Of a DNA stretch of 64,000 nt, positions 53,602-61,836 are shown one piece after another. Position 1 is the stretch's first letter. Each line of letters begins with the position of its first letter. The DNA comes from Parapedobacter koreensis (GTDB taxonomy: Bacteria > Bacteroidota > Bacteroidia > Sphingobacteriales > Sphingobacteriaceae): contig NZ_FNZR01000003.1 in the NCBI RefSeq assembly GCF_900109365.1, positions 682,001 to 746,000 on the forward strand. Reading direction: 5' to 3'. A model generated the notes under the pieces. The model saw only the letters and a program-made list of their open reading frames with translations, did not search any database and had not been told where the DNA came from. A program made the translations under genes and the position numbers.

Positions 53602-54057
53602 TTATTTTATGACAACTACAAATTCAACTTCATCTTCTGGCAGACAGCTTTCAGCATTACAGGCAGAGAACGAAACTACACCCCTTATTTTCACTTCCTT
53701 CTGCTTATCCAATTTTATTTTTTGCTGGAACACAACTTCATTGTCAAAATAAGGCACATCCAAATCGAAAACTTTCTCATATTTCGTCTTGGGCCTGGGT
53801 TCCACAGCTTTTCCGATTAACGTATAACCACCATCGGACTCAAAATCAAAAGAGGTTTTTATGGGCCCTCCTTCTGGAACATTAAGGGAATAAATGTGCC
53901 AGCCTTTATCCATCGTTGCCTTTAAAAAAACTACGGCTTCTTTGTCATTTACTTTCTTCGAACCAAATTGCCACTTAACCGGCGTTAAGATTTGACATAG
54001 GCTTGCAGATGAAATAAATGTCAAAATAAAAAATGTTAATGTTAATCTTTTCATCAT
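53602..54057 (-). CDS. DsbD N-terminal-domain-like periplasmic protein
   Basis: 151 aa protein with a signal peptide (to about residue 22) and one Ig-like domain matching the N-terminal (alpha) domain of the thiol reductase DsbD. The redox Cys pair is seen in VVSFSACNAESCLPEDEVEF near the C-terminus. No membrane or thioredoxin part follows, so it must work with a separate membrane partner. It starts at ATG 54057 (or 54054) behind GAGGAG and is 30 bases after cysN, which makes it the likely last gene of the sulfate operon. Role in thiol balance is inferred. Confidence 0.78.
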   Translation of the reverse strand: MMKRLTLTFFILTFISSASLCQILTPVKWQFGSKKVNDKEAVVFLKATMDKGWHIYSLNVPEGGPIKTSFDFESDGGYTLIGKAVEPRPKTKYEKVFDLDVPYFDNEVVFQQKIKLDKQKEVKIRGVVSFSACNAESCLPEDEVEFVVVIK

Positions 54058-54087
54058 ACTCCTCAATTTAAAGTCTTTGCCTCTGGC

Positions 54088-55338
54088 TTAGTCAACTAAT
54101 TCGGTAATCATCAGTGCTGCCACGGTAAGATTATTTCGCATATCGATGAGAATTGCACCACCGTTGGCCTTGTTAGCGATATAGCTGTCAAACGCTAATG
54201 GATCTGCGGATTTAAACTGAATTTTGCCAATGTCATTCAATCCCAAATTCTCAGCCGTCGATTTCTGAAGTGTCTCGACATTGACCCGGTAAACAACGTC
54301 CTGTATCTTGACCTTGGTCGTTTTACCATGCTGCTGAAGCAGGTAAAATTGATTGAGATCAAGTGGTTTGGTGTCCATCCAGCAAATCTCTGCTTCATAG
54401 CGCTGTGAGACCATGGGTTGCTCGGCCTGCTTAACCAACATGTCTCCCCTGCTGATGTCTATATTATCCGCCAAATGGATAATTACTGATGCTCCATTCT
54501 CAGCAGTCTGTAAATCCGCCGCAGCAAATTCGATCCGGCTGATGGTGCTGCTGAACCCGGAAGGTAGGGCCACTATACGGTCGCCGACTTCGAATGTACC
54601 ACCGACTACCCGCCCCGCATAGCCCCGGTAGTCATGTAGTTCGTCGGTCTGCGGACGGACCACCCATTGCACCGGGAAACGAGCTTGTTGGTTGTCTGTC
54701 ATATGGCTAATGTTTACGGTTTCAAGAAAACTCAATAGGGACTTGCCGTTATACCAAGGAATATTTGGCGATTCCGTCGCGATATTATCGCCTTTCAAGG
54801 CACTGACCGGGATGTAATCGACCTGTTTTATGCGGAGACTATCCGTAAGCCGTTCATAATCTGCCATTATCTTGTCGAATACGGCTTTATCATAGTCTAC
54901 CATATCCATTTTATTCACACAGACAAGCACATTGGGAATGGCTAAAAGGGATACCAAGAAAGAATGCCGCCGCGTTTGCTCCACCACGCCTTTGCGGGCG
55001 TCGATCAGGATAATGGCCAAATCTGCATTCGAAGCACCTGTCACCATGTTGCGGGTATACTGGACGTGACCCGGCGCATCGGCAATGATGAATTTACGTT
55101 TCGTTGTCTGGAAATATTTATAGGCAACATCGATGGTAATGCCCTGTTCACGTTCAGCTTTCAATCCGTCAGTCAGGATCGCTAAATCCAAGGTACCATC
55201 GTTATTTTTACGGCTGGCCCGTTGTATAGCTTCCAACTGGTCGTCCAATATCGCATTGGTATCGTATAGTAACCGTCCGATAAGGGTACTTTTCCCATCG
55301 TCTACGCTACCCGCCGTGATGAATTTAAGTATATCCAT
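54088..55338 (-). CDS. cysN: Sulfate adenylyltransferase subunit 1 (GTPase)
   Basis: Regulatory GTPase of ATP sulfurylase, driving APS formation by GTP hydrolysis. 416 aa with G1 GSVDDGKSTLIGRLLYD (10-26), G3 DAPGHVQYTRNMVTGAS and G4 NKMDM motifs, then two beta-barrel domains as in EF-Tu. There is no C-terminal APS-kinase (CysC) fusion, which agrees with direct APS reduction by the CysH here. Follows cysD by 12 bases. Confidence 0.96.
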   Translation of the reverse strand: MDILKFITAGSVDDGKSTLIGRLLYDTNAILDDQLEAIQRASRKNNDGTLDLAILTDGLKAEREQGITIDVAYKYFQTTKRKFIIADAPGHVQYTRNMVTGASNADLAIILIDARKGVVEQTRRHSFLVSLLAIPNVLVCVNKMDMVDYDKAVFDKIMADYERLTDSLRIKQVDYIPVSALKGDNIATESPNIPWYNGKSLLSFLETVNISHMTDNQQARFPVQWVVRPQTDELHDYRGYAGRVVGGTFEVGDRIVALPSGFSSTISRIEFAAADLQTAENGASVIIHLADNIDISRGDMLVKQAEQPMVSQRYEAEICWMDTKPLDLNQFYLLQQHGKTTKVKIQDVVYRVNVETLQKSTAENLGLNDIGKIQFKSADPLAFDSYIANKANGGAILIDMRNNLTVAALMITELVD

Positions 55339-55350
55339 GTTTGCTTCTGT

Positions 55351-56241
55351 TTAAAAATACCCGCTCTTTTTGCGGTCTTCCATGGCCGCCTCAGACACTT
55401 TATCGTCCATCCGTGCGCCGCGCTCGCTGATTTTGGATTGACGGATTTCCTCAATAATATCATCGATGTGGTACGCTTCGGATGGCACTGCCGCGGTGCA
55501 GGTCATATCGCCCACGGTGCGGAAGCGGACTTTACGGTATTCCACCACATCTTCGTGGTCAATATTCAAAAATTCTGCAGCTGCCATGAGCTGGCCATTG
55601 CGCGTAATGACATTGCGCTCATGCGAAAAATAAATGGACGGCAACTGGATATTTTCCCTTCTGATGTAATTCCATACATCCAACTCTGTCCAGTTGCTGA
55701 TGGGAAATACCCGGACATTTTCGCCTTGCTGGATGCGCCCGTTGTAAATATCCCATAGCTCGGGGCGTTGCCGTTTGGGATCCCATTGGCCAAATTCATC
55801 CCGTACAGAGAAAATCCGCTCCTTGGCTCTGGCCTTTTCTTCGTCGCGCCGCGCTCCCCCAATACAGGCGTCAAAGCTGTGTTGTGAGATGGTATCCAGC
55901 AGCGTAACGGTTTGGAGCGCATTCCGGCTTGCATGCTTACCTCGCTGCTCGACTACTTTGCCGGCATTAATGCTATCCTGCACGTAACCTACAATCAATT
56001 TTTCACCCAACCTAGCTATCAATTCATCACGGAATGCAATGGTTTCCGGAAAATTGTGCCCGGTGTCAATATGCACCAGTGGAAACGGGAATTTACCTGG
56101 CCTGAAGGCCTTTTCGGCTAAATGAACCAATGTAATCGAATCCTTTCCACCTGAAAACAATAACGCGGGCTTTTCAAACTGTCCCGCCACTTCCCGAAGG
56201 ATGTATATGGCTTCTGCTTCTAATTGATCTAAGTAATCCAT
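55351..56241 (-). CDS. cysD: Sulfate adenylyltransferase subunit 2
   Basis: Catalytic subunit of ATP sulfurylase: sulfate plus ATP gives APS and pyrophosphate. 296 aa of the PP-loop ATP pyrophosphatase family, with SGGKDS at residues 30-35, HIDTGHNFPET near 60-70 and the ACIGGARRDEEKARAKERIFS segment in the middle. The C-terminal YRKVRFRTVGDMTCTAAVPS and DRKKSGYF ending are the usual CysD signatures. It lies between cysH (60 bases upstream) and cysN. Confidence 0.96.
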   Translation of the reverse strand: MDYLDQLEAEAIYILREVAGQFEKPALLFSGGKDSITLVHLAEKAFRPGKFPFPLVHIDTGHNFPETIAFRDELIARLGEKLIVGYVQDSINAGKVVEQRGKHASRNALQTVTLLDTISQHSFDACIGGARRDEEKARAKERIFSVRDEFGQWDPKRQRPELWDIYNGRIQQGENVRVFPISNWTELDVWNYIRRENIQLPSIYFSHERNVITRNGQLMAAAEFLNIDHEDVVEYRKVRFRTVGDMTCTAAVPSEAYHIDDIIEEIRQSKISERGARMDDKVSEAAMEDRKKSGYF

Positions 56242-56301
56242 GTTTGTTGTTTTCTTGTTATTACCAGCCTCCTTCGGCTGTCAATACGCTGCTAATGCCC
56301 A

Positions 56302-57003
56302 TCATGTGGCATGCAACCCGCATTCTTTTTTGCTTTTGTCTTCCCACCACCAACGGCCGGCCCTGAAATCCTCCCCTTCCCTTACTGATCGGGTGCATGG
56401 TGCGCATCCAATACTCGGGAATCCTTTGTCATGCAACGGGTTGTAAGGAATATGATGTTCTTTTGCGAACTTCCATACCTCGTCAAGCGACCAATTGTAG
56501 ATGGGATGAACTTTGATCAGTTGGTTAGTTGTGTCCCATTCCACTTGGGACATCCCCTGTCTATTATCAGATTGTTCAGACCGAATCCCCGTAATCCAAC
56601 ATGACGCACCTTCCAACGCCCGTTGCAGCGGTTCGATCTTCCGGATACGGCAACATTCCTTTCGGTTTTCAACAGACTCATAGAAACTCGATGGCCCCTT
56701 TTGGCTGATTAATTGTTGCACGGCGTGCGTATCCGGAAAATAGGCTTCGATATCGCCTTTGTAGATTTCTAACGTACGGTTCCATACGTAATAAGTCTCT
56801 GGAAACAAACGCCCGGTCTCCAACGTAAAAACCCGGATAGGTAAATTATTGCTGAAAATAAAATGAGTAATCACTTGGTCTTCAATACCGAAGCTAGTTG
56901 AAAACACAGCCTTCCCAGGAAACCGCTCAGCCAGCGAAGCCAGGGCTTCAACGACTGGTTTGTCATCCACCAATACCTTTATGTCATTTACTAATGCGTC
57001 CAT
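56302..57003 (-). CDS. cysH: Adenylylsulfate reductase, assimilatory, 4Fe-4S type
   Basis: Reduces APS to sulfite and AMP with thioredoxin. 233 aa PP-loop protein with STSFGIEDQVITH near 35-47, the paired Cys117-Cys118 in RKECCRIRK and Cys200-x2-Cys203 in SIGCAPCTR, which together bind a 4Fe-4S cluster and identify an APS-using rather than PAPS-using enzyme. The catalytic Cys228 is in KKECGLHAT at the C-terminus. This fits the absence of cysC in the operon. Overlaps the upstream siroheme gene by 20 bases. Confidence 0.94.
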   Translation of the reverse strand: MDALVNDIKVLVDDKPVVEALASLAERFPGKAVFSTSFGIEDQVITHFIFSNNLPIRVFTLETGRLFPETYYVWNRTLEIYKGDIEAYFPDTHAVQQLISQKGPSSFYESVENRKECCRIRKIEPLQRALEGASCWITGIRSEQSDNRQGMSQVEWDTTNQLIKVHPIYNWSLDEVWKFAKEHHIPYNPLHDKGFPSIGCAPCTRSVREGEDFRAGRWWWEDKSKKECGLHAT

Positions 57004-57586
57004 GTTTTCGTTTTGATGTCAGCAACGATGCAGTGTGGGCATTCAATTCCCGCACCTTATCGGTAAAATCTCCTTTCAATAAATCCCGCAATTGGCTCAT
57101 GTAATGGAGGGTTTCGTCGATTTCCTCCGGTAAAGCTTCATTTAGTAATTCTTTGATTCGTTTTGCGATGGTTGGCGATTTGCCATTCGTAGATATCCCA
57201 AGCTTAAGGTTTCCTTTCTTGACAACCGAGCCGAGGTAAAAATCACATAAATCCGGTTTGTCTGCGACATTGATCAGCAAATGCCGCTTACGGCTTTCTT
57301 GGCGGATATGAGCGTTCAGGGATGGATTATTTGCTGCCACTACCACCAAATCCACGCCGTCCAAATCGGTATCGTCAAAAGCCCGTTCGTATAGATGCAC
57401 AGCGGGGTAATCTACAGTGTACGCCCGCACTTCGGGATTTATTTCCTTAGCCACGACCATAATAGTTGCTTGCGGGCTGTTTCCCAGCAATGCATAGAGT
57501 TTTTCCAACGCTACATTGCCCCCTCCTACAAGGAGGGTACGCAACTGGTTTAGTTGCAGGAAAACGGGAAATAATTGATTATCCAT
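56984..57586 (-). CDS. Precorrin-2 dehydrogenase / siroheme synthase N-terminal type (Met8-like)
   Basis: 200 aa enzyme that oxidises precorrin-2 to sirohydrochlorin and may insert iron. The Rossmann motif LLVGGGNVALEKLYALL is at about 18-34, followed by the family's DLVVVAANNPSLNAHIRQESRKR and the LLINVADKPDLCDFYLGSVVKKGNLKLGISTNGKSPTIAKRIK region in the middle. No methyltransferase domain is fused; that activity is in the next gene upstream. Supplies siroheme for the sulfite reductase of the same operon. Confidence 0.92.
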   Translation of the reverse strand: MDNQLFPVFLQLNQLRTLLVGGGNVALEKLYALLGNSPQATIMVVAKEINPEVRAYTVDYPAVHLYERAFDDTDLDGVDLVVVAANNPSLNAHIRQESRKRHLLINVADKPDLCDFYLGSVVKKGNLKLGISTNGKSPTIAKRIKELLNEALPEEIDETLHYMSQLRDLLKGDFTDKVRELNAHTASLLTSKRKHGRISK

Positions 57587-57601
57587 TCCCTGTGGTATTA
57601 G

Positions 57602-58360
57602 TTATATGGCCACTGCGCGGTGATGATGCAAGGCAAATTGCTCGTGTTTAGCCACGACTTCACCGATTACAATCACCGCAGGGGCTCCGACTTGTTGTTC
57701 CTTTGCACGGGCTACGATGGTATCCATGATGCCCAACACTACCTTTTCATTGGGCAATGAGCCATTTTGGATAATCGCGATTGGAAGGTGCCCCCTTCCC
57801 TCCTGCTGGTAGATTTGTGCAATTTCCGCCAATTTGTTCAATCCCATCAATACGACTACTGTGGCGTCCGTTTTGGCGGCGGTATAAATATCCTTCGCGA
57901 TAACACCCATGGTAGTTGAGCCGGTGATCACCCAAAAGCTTTCGCTTACGCCCCGGTAGGTCAGCGGTATACCCTGTAGCCCAGCTAACGCAATGGAACT
58001 GGATATACCGGGTACCACGGCCGTGGGTATGGTGTATTTTGCGGCATATTCCAATTCTTCTCCCCCCCTGCCAAAGACAAAAGGGTCACCTCCTTTGAGC
58101 CGTACCACATGGCCATGGGCACGGGCATAGGCAACCATCATTTCATTGATTTCCTGTTGGCTGTATGCATGCTGGTTTGCGCGTTTGCCCACAAATACCC
58201 GAAGTGCATTTTCGGGTGCGTAAGCTAATAATTCATCGTTGACTAATGCATCGTAAAGTATCACGTTGGCCGTCGCCAGCGCCTTTAAGCCTTTGAGGCT
58301 AATCAGATCAGTATCTCCCGGTCCAGCCCCTACCAACGTTATTTTGGGATAAAGTTTCAT
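57602..58360 (-). CDS. cobA: Uroporphyrinogen-III C-methyltransferase
   Basis: SAM-dependent double methylation of uroporphyrinogen III to precorrin-2, first committed step to siroheme. 252 aa from the ATG at 58360, beginning KLYPKITLVGAGPGDTDLISLKG; RLKGGDPFVFGRGGEE near 90 and VPGISSSIALAGLQGIPLTYRG near 120 are the classic motifs. An ATG 16 codons earlier at 58408 overlaps the sulfite reductase gene by eight bases and is a possible alternative start. With the Met8-like gene it gives complete siroheme supply except perhaps ferrochelation. Confidence 0.94.
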   Translation of the reverse strand: MKLYPKITLVGAGPGDTDLISLKGLKALATANVILYDALVNDELLAYAPENALRVFVGKRANQHAYSQQEINEMMVAYARAHGHVVRLKGGDPFVFGRGGEELEYAAKYTIPTAVVPGISSSIALAGLQGIPLTYRGVSESFWVITGSTTMGVIAKDIYTAAKTDATVVVLMGLNKLAEIAQIYQQEGRGHLPIAIIQNGSLPNEKVVLGIMDTIVARAKEQQVGAPAVIVIGEVVAKHEQFALHHHRAVAI

Positions 58361-58400
58361 TGTCGTTGTTTGTTTGTGTATAATACCCGCTTGGTTATCA

Positions 58401-60506
58401 CTAAACATTTACGGTATCTTTGACTTCCCTTTTAGCCTTTGTAGCCTCATAAAAATCAATCGCCGCAGCTAAATATTGCCTGGCAAAAACTTCCGAAGGA
58501 TCATGCTTGTTGATTTGAAGTACCCGCTCGCCAAACCCACCGGCAATGGCCAGCTCCCCGGTTTCAACGAAGTGGGCATCGAAGTCCTTGAGGATACCAT
58601 GATGCGAACTGCTGTTGATGCCTTTGTCGAGCAGCAATGCTTTTGCAGCACTGATAAATACGCTATAGGCGTGGTATATGGCATCGGCATACGCCCCCGC
58701 TTGATAGCTCGCATTTGCCCAGTCCAATTTCTCTTTAGCCTCCAAAAGCAACGTTGCCACCAAATCGATGACCACCCCCGCACATTCGCCAACGCCAATT
58801 GCGGTGTGGAACGTTTCCTCGTGCCCCCAGTCTACAAATTCGTCATCCGTCAACGTCGTCAAATCAGCCAGTGGCTTAAGTAAGCGGTAGAAATAATCTT
58901 TTGTCTGGCGATCGTAATAGTCATGGAATAACTCACCTTCCATGCCATGGGCGGCATAATCATCCAAGATGTACCGTAGCACGTCGGTCACCCGTTTGGA
59001 AGGCACTTTGACCACACGATCTGCTGCCCTGCCGAGCCCATCACCGAGTGTACCACCACCCAGCATCACTTGTGCGGCCGGTACCACTTTACCGGATGCC
59101 TTCAACGAACTGCCATGAAACCCAATATGCGCCAACCCGTGCTGTCCACAAGAGTTCATGCACCCGCTGATTTTTATCTTCAATTCACGGTTGAATACGA
59201 GGTCAGCATATTCGTCGTAGATGAGCTGTTCGAGCACCCGAGCCATCTCCGTGCTATTGGAAATGCCCAGGTTGCAGGTATCCGTACCCGGGCAAGTCGT
59301 CACATCGGCTACGCTGTCAAAACCCGGCGCAGCAAGCCCAAGCCTATCCAGCACGTTGAAGACATGAGGCAATGACTGTTCCCGCACGAATTTAAGCAGC
59401 AACCCCTGATTTTGGGTGATGCGTATTTCATCGGCAATGTGTTGCTGTATACCATCGATAAGTTTACGGGCATTTACTGTAGGAAGATCGCCAGTCGGCA
59501 CCTTTACATATACGGAATGAAAACCCACCTGCTTCTGAGAATATACGTTGGTTTTTTTCCATATTTCATAGCGAAATTGATCAATCGGTTCTTCGGCAAC
59601 CTGGAGCACTACGGGGGGCGCCGGCTGTGGTACCGCATCCCAGTCTATGGCAAATGATTTGGTTTTGTTTGCTATTCGCTCTTCGTCGATCAGTCGCAAT
59701 ACCTCTTCGAGTCCCATTTTTTGGATAAGGAACTTGAAGCGGGCTTTATTTCGGTTATTGCGTTCTCCATAGCGATCAAATACGCGGATCACACTTTCAG
59801 CATAAGGGATAAGCTGGTTTTCGGGTAAAAAATCATGTACGACATAAGCAATCATTGGTTGCGCGCCTAACCCACCGCCCAGCATCACCTTGAAGCCCCG
59901 CTCCTCCTGGCCCTCCACAACACGGATTTTGGGAATGAGGCCCAAATCATGCACATAGCTAAACGCGGTATCCCGTTCGCTGGACGAAAAAGCTACCTTG
60001 AATTTGCGTCCCATCTCCTGGCAAATCGGGTTACGGAGAAAATACGAAAATAGCGCATGTGCATAGGGAGACACATCAAAAGGCTCTTCCGGATCAATGC
60101 CCGCATTGGGTGATGCGGTCACATTTCGTACCGTATTACCACAAGCCTCCCGTAAGGTAATGTCGTCTTGGGCAAGCTTAGCCCATAACTCAGGCGTTCT
60201 ATCAAGGCTGACATAATGGATTTGGATGTCCTGCCGTGTGGTCAGGTGCAGGTTATGGCTCGCATATTCATCGGATATGTCGGCTATCCGGAGCAATTGC
60301 TTGAAGGTCACTTTGCCAAAAGGCAACTTAATGCGGACCATCTGTACCCCCGGTTGCCGTTGGCCATATACGCCCCTCGCTAATCGCAAGCTACGGAACT
60401 TTTCTTCTGCGATCTTCCCTTCTTGGTATTCCCTGATTTTGCGTTCGAGTTCGATAATCTCCTTTTCTACTATCGGATTTTCCAACTCCGTCCTAAAACT
60501 TTGCAT
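58401..60506 (-). CDS. Siroheme sulfite reductase with C-terminal HEPN domain
   Basis: Six-electron reduction of sulfite to sulfide. 701 aa: two ferredoxin-like/siroheme repeats (about 50-560) and a C-terminal helical HEPN-like domain (about 575-690, containing AIYHAYSVFISAAKALLLDKG). The 4Fe-4S and siroheme Cys are complete: Cys405 and Cys411 in TTCPGTDTCNLG, Cys449 and Cys453 in SGCMNSCGQHG. Siroheme Arg residues occur in HNLHLTTRQDIQIHYV. Such proteins are also called nitrite reductases, but cysDNH in the operon favours sulfite. The HEPN part lacks the Arg-x4-6-His of RNase HEPNs, so it is probably not a nuclease. First gene of the operon, behind an attenuator. Confidence 0.92.
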   Translation of the reverse strand: MQSFRTELENPIVEKEIIELERKIREYQEGKIAEEKFRSLRLARGVYGQRQPGVQMVRIKLPFGKVTFKQLLRIADISDEYASHNLHLTTRQDIQIHYVSLDRTPELWAKLAQDDITLREACGNTVRNVTASPNAGIDPEEPFDVSPYAHALFSYFLRNPICQEMGRKFKVAFSSSERDTAFSYVHDLGLIPKIRVVEGQEERGFKVMLGGGLGAQPMIAYVVHDFLPENQLIPYAESVIRVFDRYGERNNRNKARFKFLIQKMGLEEVLRLIDEERIANKTKSFAIDWDAVPQPAPPVVLQVAEEPIDQFRYEIWKKTNVYSQKQVGFHSVYVKVPTGDLPTVNARKLIDGIQQHIADEIRITQNQGLLLKFVREQSLPHVFNVLDRLGLAAPGFDSVADVTTCPGTDTCNLGISNSTEMARVLEQLIYDEYADLVFNRELKIKISGCMNSCGQHGLAHIGFHGSSLKASGKVVPAAQVMLGGGTLGDGLGRAADRVVKVPSKRVTDVLRYILDDYAAHGMEGELFHDYYDRQTKDYFYRLLKPLADLTTLTDDEFVDWGHEETFHTAIGVGECAGVVIDLVATLLLEAKEKLDWANASYQAGAYADAIYHAYSVFISAAKALLLDKGINSSSHHGILKDFDAHFVETGELAIAGGFGERVLQINKHDPSEVFARQYLAAAIDFYEATKAKREVKDTVNV

Positions 60507-60533
60507 GGATGTTGTTTAGCTATAATATATCAC

Positions 60534-60559
60534 AAAAAAACCTCCCTAATTAGTGGAGG
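60534..60559 (-). terminator. Attenuator terminator in the sulfur-operon leader
   Basis: On the minus strand CCTCC (60559-60555) pairs with GGAGG (60545-60541) around ACTAATTAG and is followed by seven T (60540-60534), 28 bases before the first start codon at 60506. No gene on this strand lies upstream, so it can only act on the operon's own transcript. Confidence 0.8.
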
Positions 60560-60605
60560 CTGTTGTTTATTGTTGTGTCAGACACGTTGTTATTAAACAG
60601 CCACC
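60555..60605 (-). promoter_or_regulatory. Antiterminator hairpin of the sulfur-operon leader
   Basis: Minus-strand GGTGGCTGTT (60605-60596) pairs with AACAGCCTCC (60564-60555) in nine of ten positions, with one T-T mismatch. The second arm contains the whole CCTCC half of the terminator, so the two hairpins exclude each other. A small GTGTC-GACAC hairpin (60585-60575) sits in the loop. Confidence 0.7.
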
Positions 60606-60606
60606 A

Positions 60607-60657
60607 TTACCTGTGGGCCATATAACAAGGTGCCATCAACTTATTTGTTTGTTTCAT
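60607..60657 (-). CDS. 16-residue leader peptide of the sulfur operon
   Basis: ATG at 60657 opens MKQTNKLMAPCYMAHR and stops at TAA 60609-60607. The single Cys codon (TGT) is at 60627-60625. The stop codon is one base before the antiterminator arm, so a ribosome that finishes the peptide would cover the arm and let the terminator form, while one waiting at the Cys codon would leave it free. The start is about 22-30 bases downstream of the predicted transcript start. No obvious Shine-Dalgarno sequence, which is common in this phylum. Translation is inferred, not shown. Confidence 0.6.
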   Translation of the reverse strand: MKQTNKLMAPCYMAHR

Positions 60658-60685
60658 TTGTCCGATTTCTCTCGTCCTTTGCATG

Positions 60686-60693
60686 CAAATATA
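60686..60693 (-). promoter_or_regulatory. -7 promoter box of the sulfate-assimilation operon
   Basis: Minus-strand TATATTTG matches TAnnTTTG. It gives a leader of about 170-180 bases to the start at 60506. A -33 element is not clear; TTTA lies 26 bases upstream. Confidence 0.55.
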
Positions 60694-60816
60694 CGCAAAG
60701 TATATAGAAGTAGTAGTGTTAAAGTGAAATAAATTACTGGGATTGGAGGGAAATTTACTTAAATGGCTACTGTTTGCTAAAATTCCTTTGGGATCAGAAT
60801 GTCTACCTATTTTGTA

Positions 60817-60824
60817 TATATTTG
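60817..60824 (+). promoter_or_regulatory. -7 promoter box of pstSCAB
   Basis: TATATTTG matches TAnnTTTG. It lies inside the longest possible pstS frame (ATG at 60799) and 25 bases before the ATG at 60850, which supports the later start. Confidence 0.5.
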
Positions 60825-60849
60825 TGCCCTCGACTTTGATGGGCTTAAT

Positions 60850-61836
60850 ATGAGGGTTAATAGTGTACGGTATATATCTATAAATTTAATTATAGCACTC
60901 TTTTTTATCGATATCCAAACGGGATGCGCCCCTAAAAATTCGTCCAGTTGGGATTCCGAAAAGGGGTTACAAGGGACCATCAGCATCTCGGGTGCTTTTG
61001 CGCTTTATCCCCTTGTCGTCATGTGGAGCGAACAGTTCAAAGAAATCCATCCCAATGTCCGCTTCAATATTTCCGCTGGTGGCGCCGGTAAAGGGATTGC
61101 TGATGCATTGAGTGGTATGGTAGATATAGGCTTAGTATCCCGGGATATCCATCAGCAGGAATACGATCGCGGTGCTTATGTCATTAGTGTGGCCAAAGAT
61201 GCTGTGGTCGGAACGCTTAGCACACAAAATCCAAATCTAGCAACCATCTTGGGGCGAGGGATGAAGCAAAAGGAATTGCGGCAGGTGTTTGTAGCGGGCA
61301 GCTACTCAAAATGGAACCAACTGGATCCATCATTTTCTGCCGACGACTTGCACGTGTATGTCCGTTCGGACGCAGCTGGAGCTGCAGAGACTTGGGCAGC
61401 CTTCCTTGGAAAATCACAGGAAGATCTCAAAGGCGTGGGTATTTTCGGGGATCCTGGCATTGCGCAGGCTATCCAGAAAAATCCATTGGCCGTTGGGTTT
61501 AATAACATTAGCTATGTCTATGATCTTAAAACCCGAAAGCAAACCGCCGGCATCCGCGTCATTCCGATAGATTTGAATAATGATGGAACCATTTCCCCAG
61601 CGGAAGATTTCTACGGTACCATCGATAGCCTTACACAAGCCGTGGCAAAGGGCGACTATCCATCGCCACCGGCGCGAAATCTTTCCTTTTTGCTAAAGGG
61701 TAAACCGGACGATTTCGTATTGGTCGAATTTATAAAATTTGTATTGACCAAAGAGGCCCAGTCCATCTTATTGGAGAATGGATACATCCCACTTAATGAA
61801 GAATTGTTGAAGGAAGAACTTACTAAACTGGATTGA
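60850..61836 (+). CDS. pstS: Phosphate ABC transporter substrate-binding lipoprotein
   Basis: Captures phosphate for the PstCAB permease. 328 aa from the ATG at 60850: lipoprotein signal with lipobox IQTGC (Cys about residue 26), then the PBP fold with ISISGAFALYPLVVMWSEQF, ISAGGAGKGIADAL and IGLVSRDIHQQEYDRGAYV, the phosphate-site loops of the PstS-like family (the SGAFAL-type motif rather than the longer Pho-regulon E. coli form). The upstream ATG at 60799 is not used because a promoter box falls between. First of pstSCAB. Confidence 0.92.
   Translation: MRVNSVRYISINLIIALFFIDIQTGCAPKNSSSWDSEKGLQGTISISGAFALYPLVVMWSEQFKEIHPNVRFNISAGGAGKGIADALSGMVDIGLVSRDIHQQEYDRGAYVISVAKDAVVGTLSTQNPNLATILGRGMKQKELRQVFVAGSYSKWNQLDPSFSADDLHVYVRSDAAGAAETWAAFLGKSQEDLKGVGIFGDPGIAQAIQKNPLAVGFNNISYVYDLKTRKQTAGIRVIPIDLNNDGTISPAEDFYGTIDSLTQAVAKGDYPSPPARNLSFLLKGKPDDFVLVEFIKFVLTKEAQSILLENGYIPLNEELLKEELTKLD

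Follow-up and report, generated by a model that had tools for sequence, protein, structure and literature searches.

In attenuators of the trp/his type, a leader ORF carries codons for the regulated amino acid, an RNA arm lies at the stop codon of this upstream ORF (uORF), an antiterminator and an intrinsic terminator compete for one arm so that only one of them can form, and a biosynthetic operon follows downstream. The leader reported here has all of these features and differs in the amino acid concerned (cysteine), in its phylum (Bacteroidota), in the start of the uORF, which for most relatives coincides with the predicted +1, and in having one to few Cys codons. Short leader ORFs coding for cysteine have been reported elsewhere. 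Those of mycobacteria are polycysteine leaderless ORFs (Canestrari et al., 2020, doi 10.1111/mmi.14498, as cited in PMC9031893 and PMC13236596) that act by translation attenuation (PMC13236596), and candidates for cysteine-coding leaders in Actinobacteria were on record by 2005, without a conserved terminator hairpin (PMC1262725). The mycobacterial ORFs resemble ours in being short, Cys-coding, often leaderless and situated before sulfur or cysteine genes; in contrast, the present leader possesses an intrinsic terminator and an antiterminator, and it belongs to an unrelated phylum with an unrelated sequence. The uORFC-8-2 motif before cysS of Rhodobacterales, for which ribosome-mediated attenuation has been proposed (PMC8632094), likewise combines a uORF containing tandem Cys codons with an intrinsic terminator, but it precedes a cysteinyl-tRNA synthetase gene, is alphaproteobacterial and has another structure. 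Closest in lineage is Flavobacterium psychrophilum, in which leader-peptide attenuation before amino-acid operons has been described (PMC9723704); this is the same phylum and mechanism class, and we found neither cysteine nor sulfate assimilation named there. Our search of the open-access literature (subscription papers and supplements lay outside it) found no cysteine attenuator in Bacteroidota, in agreement with the sequence-only reading that preceded this work, whose author knew of none. The mechanism class is a classical one; the lineage, the gene association and the leaderless uORFs appear to be undescribed.

The window, by which we mean the whole stretch of 64,000 nucleotides that was analyzed, comes from a genome of the Parapedobacter group, and its sulfite reductase is 84% identical to that of P. 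tibetensis and 75% identical to that of P. indicus. Direct reading placed the leader on the minus strand, with a divergent PstS-like gene to one side and, to the other, the gene for a nitrite/sulfite reductase family hemoprotein (sir; 58401–60506, minus strand), which is the first of the operon and whose best NCBIfam matches were NirA-like and under the equivalog cut-off. The remainder of the operon (53602–58408, minus strand) encodes a uroporphyrinogen-III methyltransferase, a siroheme synthase N-terminal domain, CysH, CysD, CysN and finally a small protein for which no NCBIfam match was found. Seven same-strand genes, sulfite reductase included, follow the leader; sulfite reductase, the siroheme genes, cysH, cysD and cysN provide the sulfide from which cysteine is made.

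The leader parts, all on the minus strand, were identified by direct reading and folding. A -7 promoter box of the Bacteroidota TAnnTTTG type, TATATTTG, occupies 60686–60693, with a predicted +1 at about 60681. The leader uORF, MKQTNKLMAPCYMAHR with its stop, has 16 codons and runs from the ATG at 60657 to the TAA at 60607 (60607–60657). Its regulatory Cys codon is a TGT at codon 11 (60625–60627), followed by TAT (Tyr) at a position where close relatives have a second Cys codon in the alignment. One base past the uORF stop lies arm 2 (GGTGGCTGTT; 60596–60605), the 5' half of the antiterminator; after a spacer of 31 bases it is followed by arm 3 (AACAGCCTCC; 60555–60564), which is both the 3' half of the antiterminator and the 5' half of the terminator. 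Nine of the ten bases of these arms can pair, the exception being a single U-U mismatch. The intrinsic terminator hairpin (60534–60561) overlaps the CCTCC of arm 3 and has a run of seven Ts at 60540–60534, leaving 27 bases between its end at 60534 and the sulfite reductase ATG at 60506. A simple terminator scan returned no hit for this terminator; the hairpin was seen by folding. Folding without a ribosome further predicted a hairpin, 1:2, between the uORF and arm 2 (60572–60640), which is not conserved and is missing from several relatives (e.g., L084 and L002); in attenuators of the trp/his type, a 1:2 protector hairpin brings about termination when the leader is not translated. The promoter box, the 16-codon ORF with one Cys, the arm and its 9/10 complement, the terminator and the seven-gene operon, all of which had been named from the letters alone, were confirmed by direct reading of the minus strand. 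At the Rfam gathering score no match was obtained in the window, and below that threshold the window stretch and 16 relatives gave chance matches only.

This leader is very probably a ribosome-mediated transcription attenuator that ties the sulfate-assimilation operon to charged tRNA-Cys, as the sequence-only reading had proposed; the conserved Cys-containing uORFs, the alternating stems and the ribosome-block folding described below all support that proposal. The parts, their conservation and coevolution in relatives and the computed switch lead us to infer that the ribosome stalls, that tRNA-Cys is involved and in which direction the response runs, as follows. When Cys-tRNA is short, the ribosome would stall at the leader Cys codon and break the 1:2 hairpin, so that arm 2 (60605–60596) would be free to pair with arm 3 (60564–60555); this pairing would block the terminator and the operon would be read. 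With ample Cys-tRNA, the ribosome would go on to the stop codon and cover arm 2, arm 3 would then fold into the terminator, and transcription would stop before sulfite reductase. On this reading, sulfate assimilation in a large soil and freshwater group of Bacteroidota would gain a specific and testable control by cysteine supply, and amino-acid attenuation of a sulfur operon would be added to a phylum in which such leaders are on record but few have been studied in detail.

The switch was modeled by folding the leaders with the ribosome footprint held unpaired, an assumed span of ~17 nt upstream and 13 nt downstream of the first A-site base. In the window leader, placing the ribosome at the Cys codon made the antiterminator the MFE fold, and with the ribosome at the stop codon the terminator formed; without a ribosome, the 1:2 hairpin sequestered arm 2 and the terminator formed as well. 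Stalls at codons 5 to 14 permitted the antiterminator, and stalls at the last codon or at the stop did not. Of 91 leaders compared, 84 had a stronger antiterminator when the ribosome stood at Cys than when it stood at the stop, a comparison in which the stop-codon block covers arm 2 almost by construction because the arm adjoins the stop. Pairing of the terminator was weaker with the ribosome at Cys, clearly so in the window and by a small amount when averaged over all leaders (9.75 versus 10.45 pairs). At equilibrium, a large part of the terminator persists in both states in most relatives, so that their switch would have to depend on which stem folds first.

The distribution of the element was surveyed in the DNA upstream of orthologous sulfite reductase genes from 80 named genomes, eight other congeners, a phylum-wide spread and another 120 sites in genomes of the family. 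The rule for recognizing a leader was blind to Cys and called for a hairpin with a T-run near the gene together with a uORF shortly after a TAnnTTTG-type box. A layout of promoter, uORF and terminator was found before sir in 99 of 222 non-identical regions, with leaders present in Parapedobacter, Mucilaginibacter, Pedobacter, some other genera of the family and Chitinophaga; the leader of Adhaeribacter (L077) was recognized by eye. In the random fetch of family genomes the element was present in 51 of 120. It was absent from the Sphingobacterium leaders that were read and from many other relatives, and the Flavobacterium-like operons examined contained an operator-like motif only, with no Cys-rich leader and terminator before cysH. 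RNA models gave one strong match per genome, located before sir. Weak second matches were obtained in G078, G082 and G036, and the five that were read proved to be ordinary terminators or to have no leader. The original proposal had been staked in advance on conservation in relatives, and the survey found both the Cys-bearing uORFs and the alternating stems to be conserved.

The spacing between the promoter box and the ATG was exactly four bases in 55 of the 99 leaders. As the TAnnTTTG box is placed at -12 to -5 in the F. psychrophilum study (PMC9723704), this spacing puts the A of the ATG at the predicted +1, and the uORFs of these 55 leaders would be leaderless. Few mRNAs of the phylum lack a leader: they amount to 5.5% in F. 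psychrophilum, and about 3.7% of the 5' UTRs of B. thetaiotaomicron are shorter than 10 nt. The window's own leader does not share the leaderless uORF of the mycobacterial attenuators: its predicted 5' UTR is ~24 nt, and relative to the leader of its congener L002, 24 additional bases precede ATGAAACAA. A second in-frame ATG (60682–60684, minus strand), one base past the -7 box, would make the uORF 25 codons long; because the ATG at 60684 is upstream of the predicted +1 (~60681), the 16-codon ORF is the likely one. Weighing these data, we are somewhat inclined to view the leaders as an undescribed family of Bacteroidota cysteine attenuators in which the sensing ORF is leaderless in most members, so that a ribosome starting at the nascent 5' end would control a terminator ~100 nt downstream, convergent with the mycobacterial system and acting on transcription rather than on translation. 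Such leaderless uORFs pose the question of how ribosomes that initiate in the absence of a 5' UTR remain coupled to RNA polymerase.

Cys was encoded in 93 of the 99 leader uORFs, and two or more Cys codons were present in 82. Shuffled uORFs had a mean of 54.7 Cys codons (sd 7.2, maximum 73), as compared with the 236 among 2043 codons of the actual uORFs, and after thinning to 21 dissimilar leaders an enrichment of about four-fold persisted (46 Cys of 430 codons versus 11.5 in shuffled uORFs, with a maximum of 24 in 1000). Counts of out-of-frame Cys were tried as a control and discarded as uninformative, since a T or C directly behind the ATG creates a "Cys" in frame +1; shuffled uORFs were used instead. 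Both codons occur in the leaders (142 TGT and 94 TGC), which argues that the amino acid rather than the letters has been kept. The Cys codons are mostly situated 4–11 codons ahead of the stop, and the remainder of the peptide varies freely. Tandem Cys codons were found in 66 of the 93 Cys-bearing uORFs. The window uORF has no consecutive Cys codons, its single Cys lying in a PCY where close relatives have PCC or LCC; the peptides of its congeners are MEQTIMPVPCCMALV (L084), MKQTNKITMLCCMAVLK (L002), MKQTNEQKMYCCMPLE (L086) and MKQVSVQEMCNCMPLE (L003). On this alignment, the single Cys of the window is probably a recent, derived loss, from PCC to PCY by a change of the second TGT to TAT. Other single-Cys leaders are L020, L024, L026, L090 and L094. 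In one Mucilaginibacter leader (L017), the arms and terminator are kept and Gly-Leu stands in place of the Cys-Cys of its relatives.

That the window has a single Cys codon, few for classical attenuation, had raised the suspicion that the peptide itself is sensed. The count of one is correct, and the probable TGT to TAT change offers an explanation for it. A peptide sensor, whether it acted as an arrest peptide or through reaction of its cysteines with a thiol, a metal or an oxidant, would stall its own ribosome and operate the same RNA switch, and both the single Cys codon and the closeness of the Cys codons to the C-terminus of the peptide would suit it. However, the surroundings of the Cys residues vary widely between clades (MNFNFIPSKLIAMQIMCCCKTQK, MGYKVSMMMNMCMCCWEHSTD and MKQTNKITMLCCMAVLK), sequence-specific arrest peptides keep more than one type of residue, and both Cys codons are used freely, which makes a peptide sensor very unlikely. 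As Cys is conserved in otherwise dissimilar peptides, the supply of tRNA-Cys is the better candidate for the signal. The expectation that relatives would share a PCYMAHR-like peptide and show compensating changes in the stems held only for its second half: a DNA pattern for the peptide, run against 201 family genomes, matched the window only, and compensating changes were found in Mucilaginibacter.

In the window, the duplex of arm 2 and arm 3 has a dG of -15.6 kcal/mol (p about 0.005 versus shuffles) and ranks among the stronger leaders relative to shuffles. Pairing windows fixed at 25 bases failed to capture those Mucilaginibacter arms that extend over the uORF stop, and a wider window was adopted. 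Arm 2 paired better with the arm 3 of its own leader than with the arm 3 of other leaders, with values of -10.87 versus -9.08 (sd 0.25) for 93 leaders and -10.74 versus -8.57 kcal/mol for the 21 thinned leaders (0 of 20,000 permutations). At one nucleotide of the shared arm in Mucilaginibacter, C is replaced by U in five sequences; the antiterminator partner changed from G to A in four of the five, the fifth forming a G-U pair, and the terminator partner changed from G to A in all five (C-G to U-A), these counts being of sequences and not of independent events. Covariation of a shared nucleotide with both partners is the pattern expected from two alternative stems. The overall covariation score of the Mucilaginibacter antiterminator was modestly above that of shuffles, 40 of 500 of which reached it. 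Within the genus of the window the antiterminator was retained (84% of cells paired), with no two-sided compensating change, and some Pedobacter (L053, L054 and L049) have a weak predicted antiterminator. Intergenic DNA often contains short ORFs and terminators, and in a pattern scan promoter-like and terminator-like sites also arose in shuffles, so the parts could in principle be explained without regulation, as a uORF that arose by chance and the plain terminator of a small transcript. Such an origin is scarcely credible against the four-fold Cys enrichment of thinned leaders over shuffled uORFs, the preference of arms for their own partners, the compensating changes and the fixed spacing from promoter to ATG.

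Losses of the element were seen close to the window. The closest relative, L083 (G028; sir 87% identical), and the congener L087 (G003) keep the promoter and have lost the leader ORF and terminator, and the congener L088 has a leader without in-frame Cys, in which Cys-like letters occur out of frame. Repeated losses in sister species suggest that the attenuator is readily discarded. Since it is dispensable over evolutionary time, we considered that the family may consist of cysteine attenuators and the window copy be a decaying remnant, unresponsive and acting as a weak constitutive terminator; the loss of Cys at one of two positions and the inserted 5' UTR would also fit decay. Against this, the window leader has an intact reading frame, with its stop in place, and has kept the two stems and the run of Ts; its arm duplex is among the stronger relative to shuffles, and single-Cys leaders exist elsewhere, all of which render the remnant explanation unlikely.

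A probable operator, CTACTACTTCTATATAC, lies directly upstream of the -7 box (60700–60716, minus strand), and a related block occurs at the sir promoter of many relatives, including relatives without the attenuator. The sole match without mismatch to the operator pattern TACTNNTTCTATATAC in the genome was the sir promoter, and when two mismatches were allowed in a search for a regulon, the genome counts were not above those of a reversed-pattern control. Besides the window, an operator-like motif was observed in L027, L030, L037, L043, L047 and L150–L160; it reads CTACTA..TATA, or CTATTAA.CTATAGG in Flavobacterium-like operons, and in many relatives a gene for an Rrf2-like regulator is located immediately upstream of sir or cysH. 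The motif and the Rrf2-like neighbor point to a probable second control of the same operon at the level of DNA, from which the control by cysteine supply would be separate.

The divergent PstS-like gene (60800–61836, plus strand) encodes a lipoprotein (...GCAPKN) and is followed by pstC- and pstA-like genes. Its promoter contains a block, CTACCTATTTTGTATATATTTG, similar to the block before sulfite reductase, and the transporter may serve the uptake of sulfate rather than phosphate under a regulator common with sir. A lipoprotein of the CAPK type also reads divergently from sir at Sphingobacterium loci.
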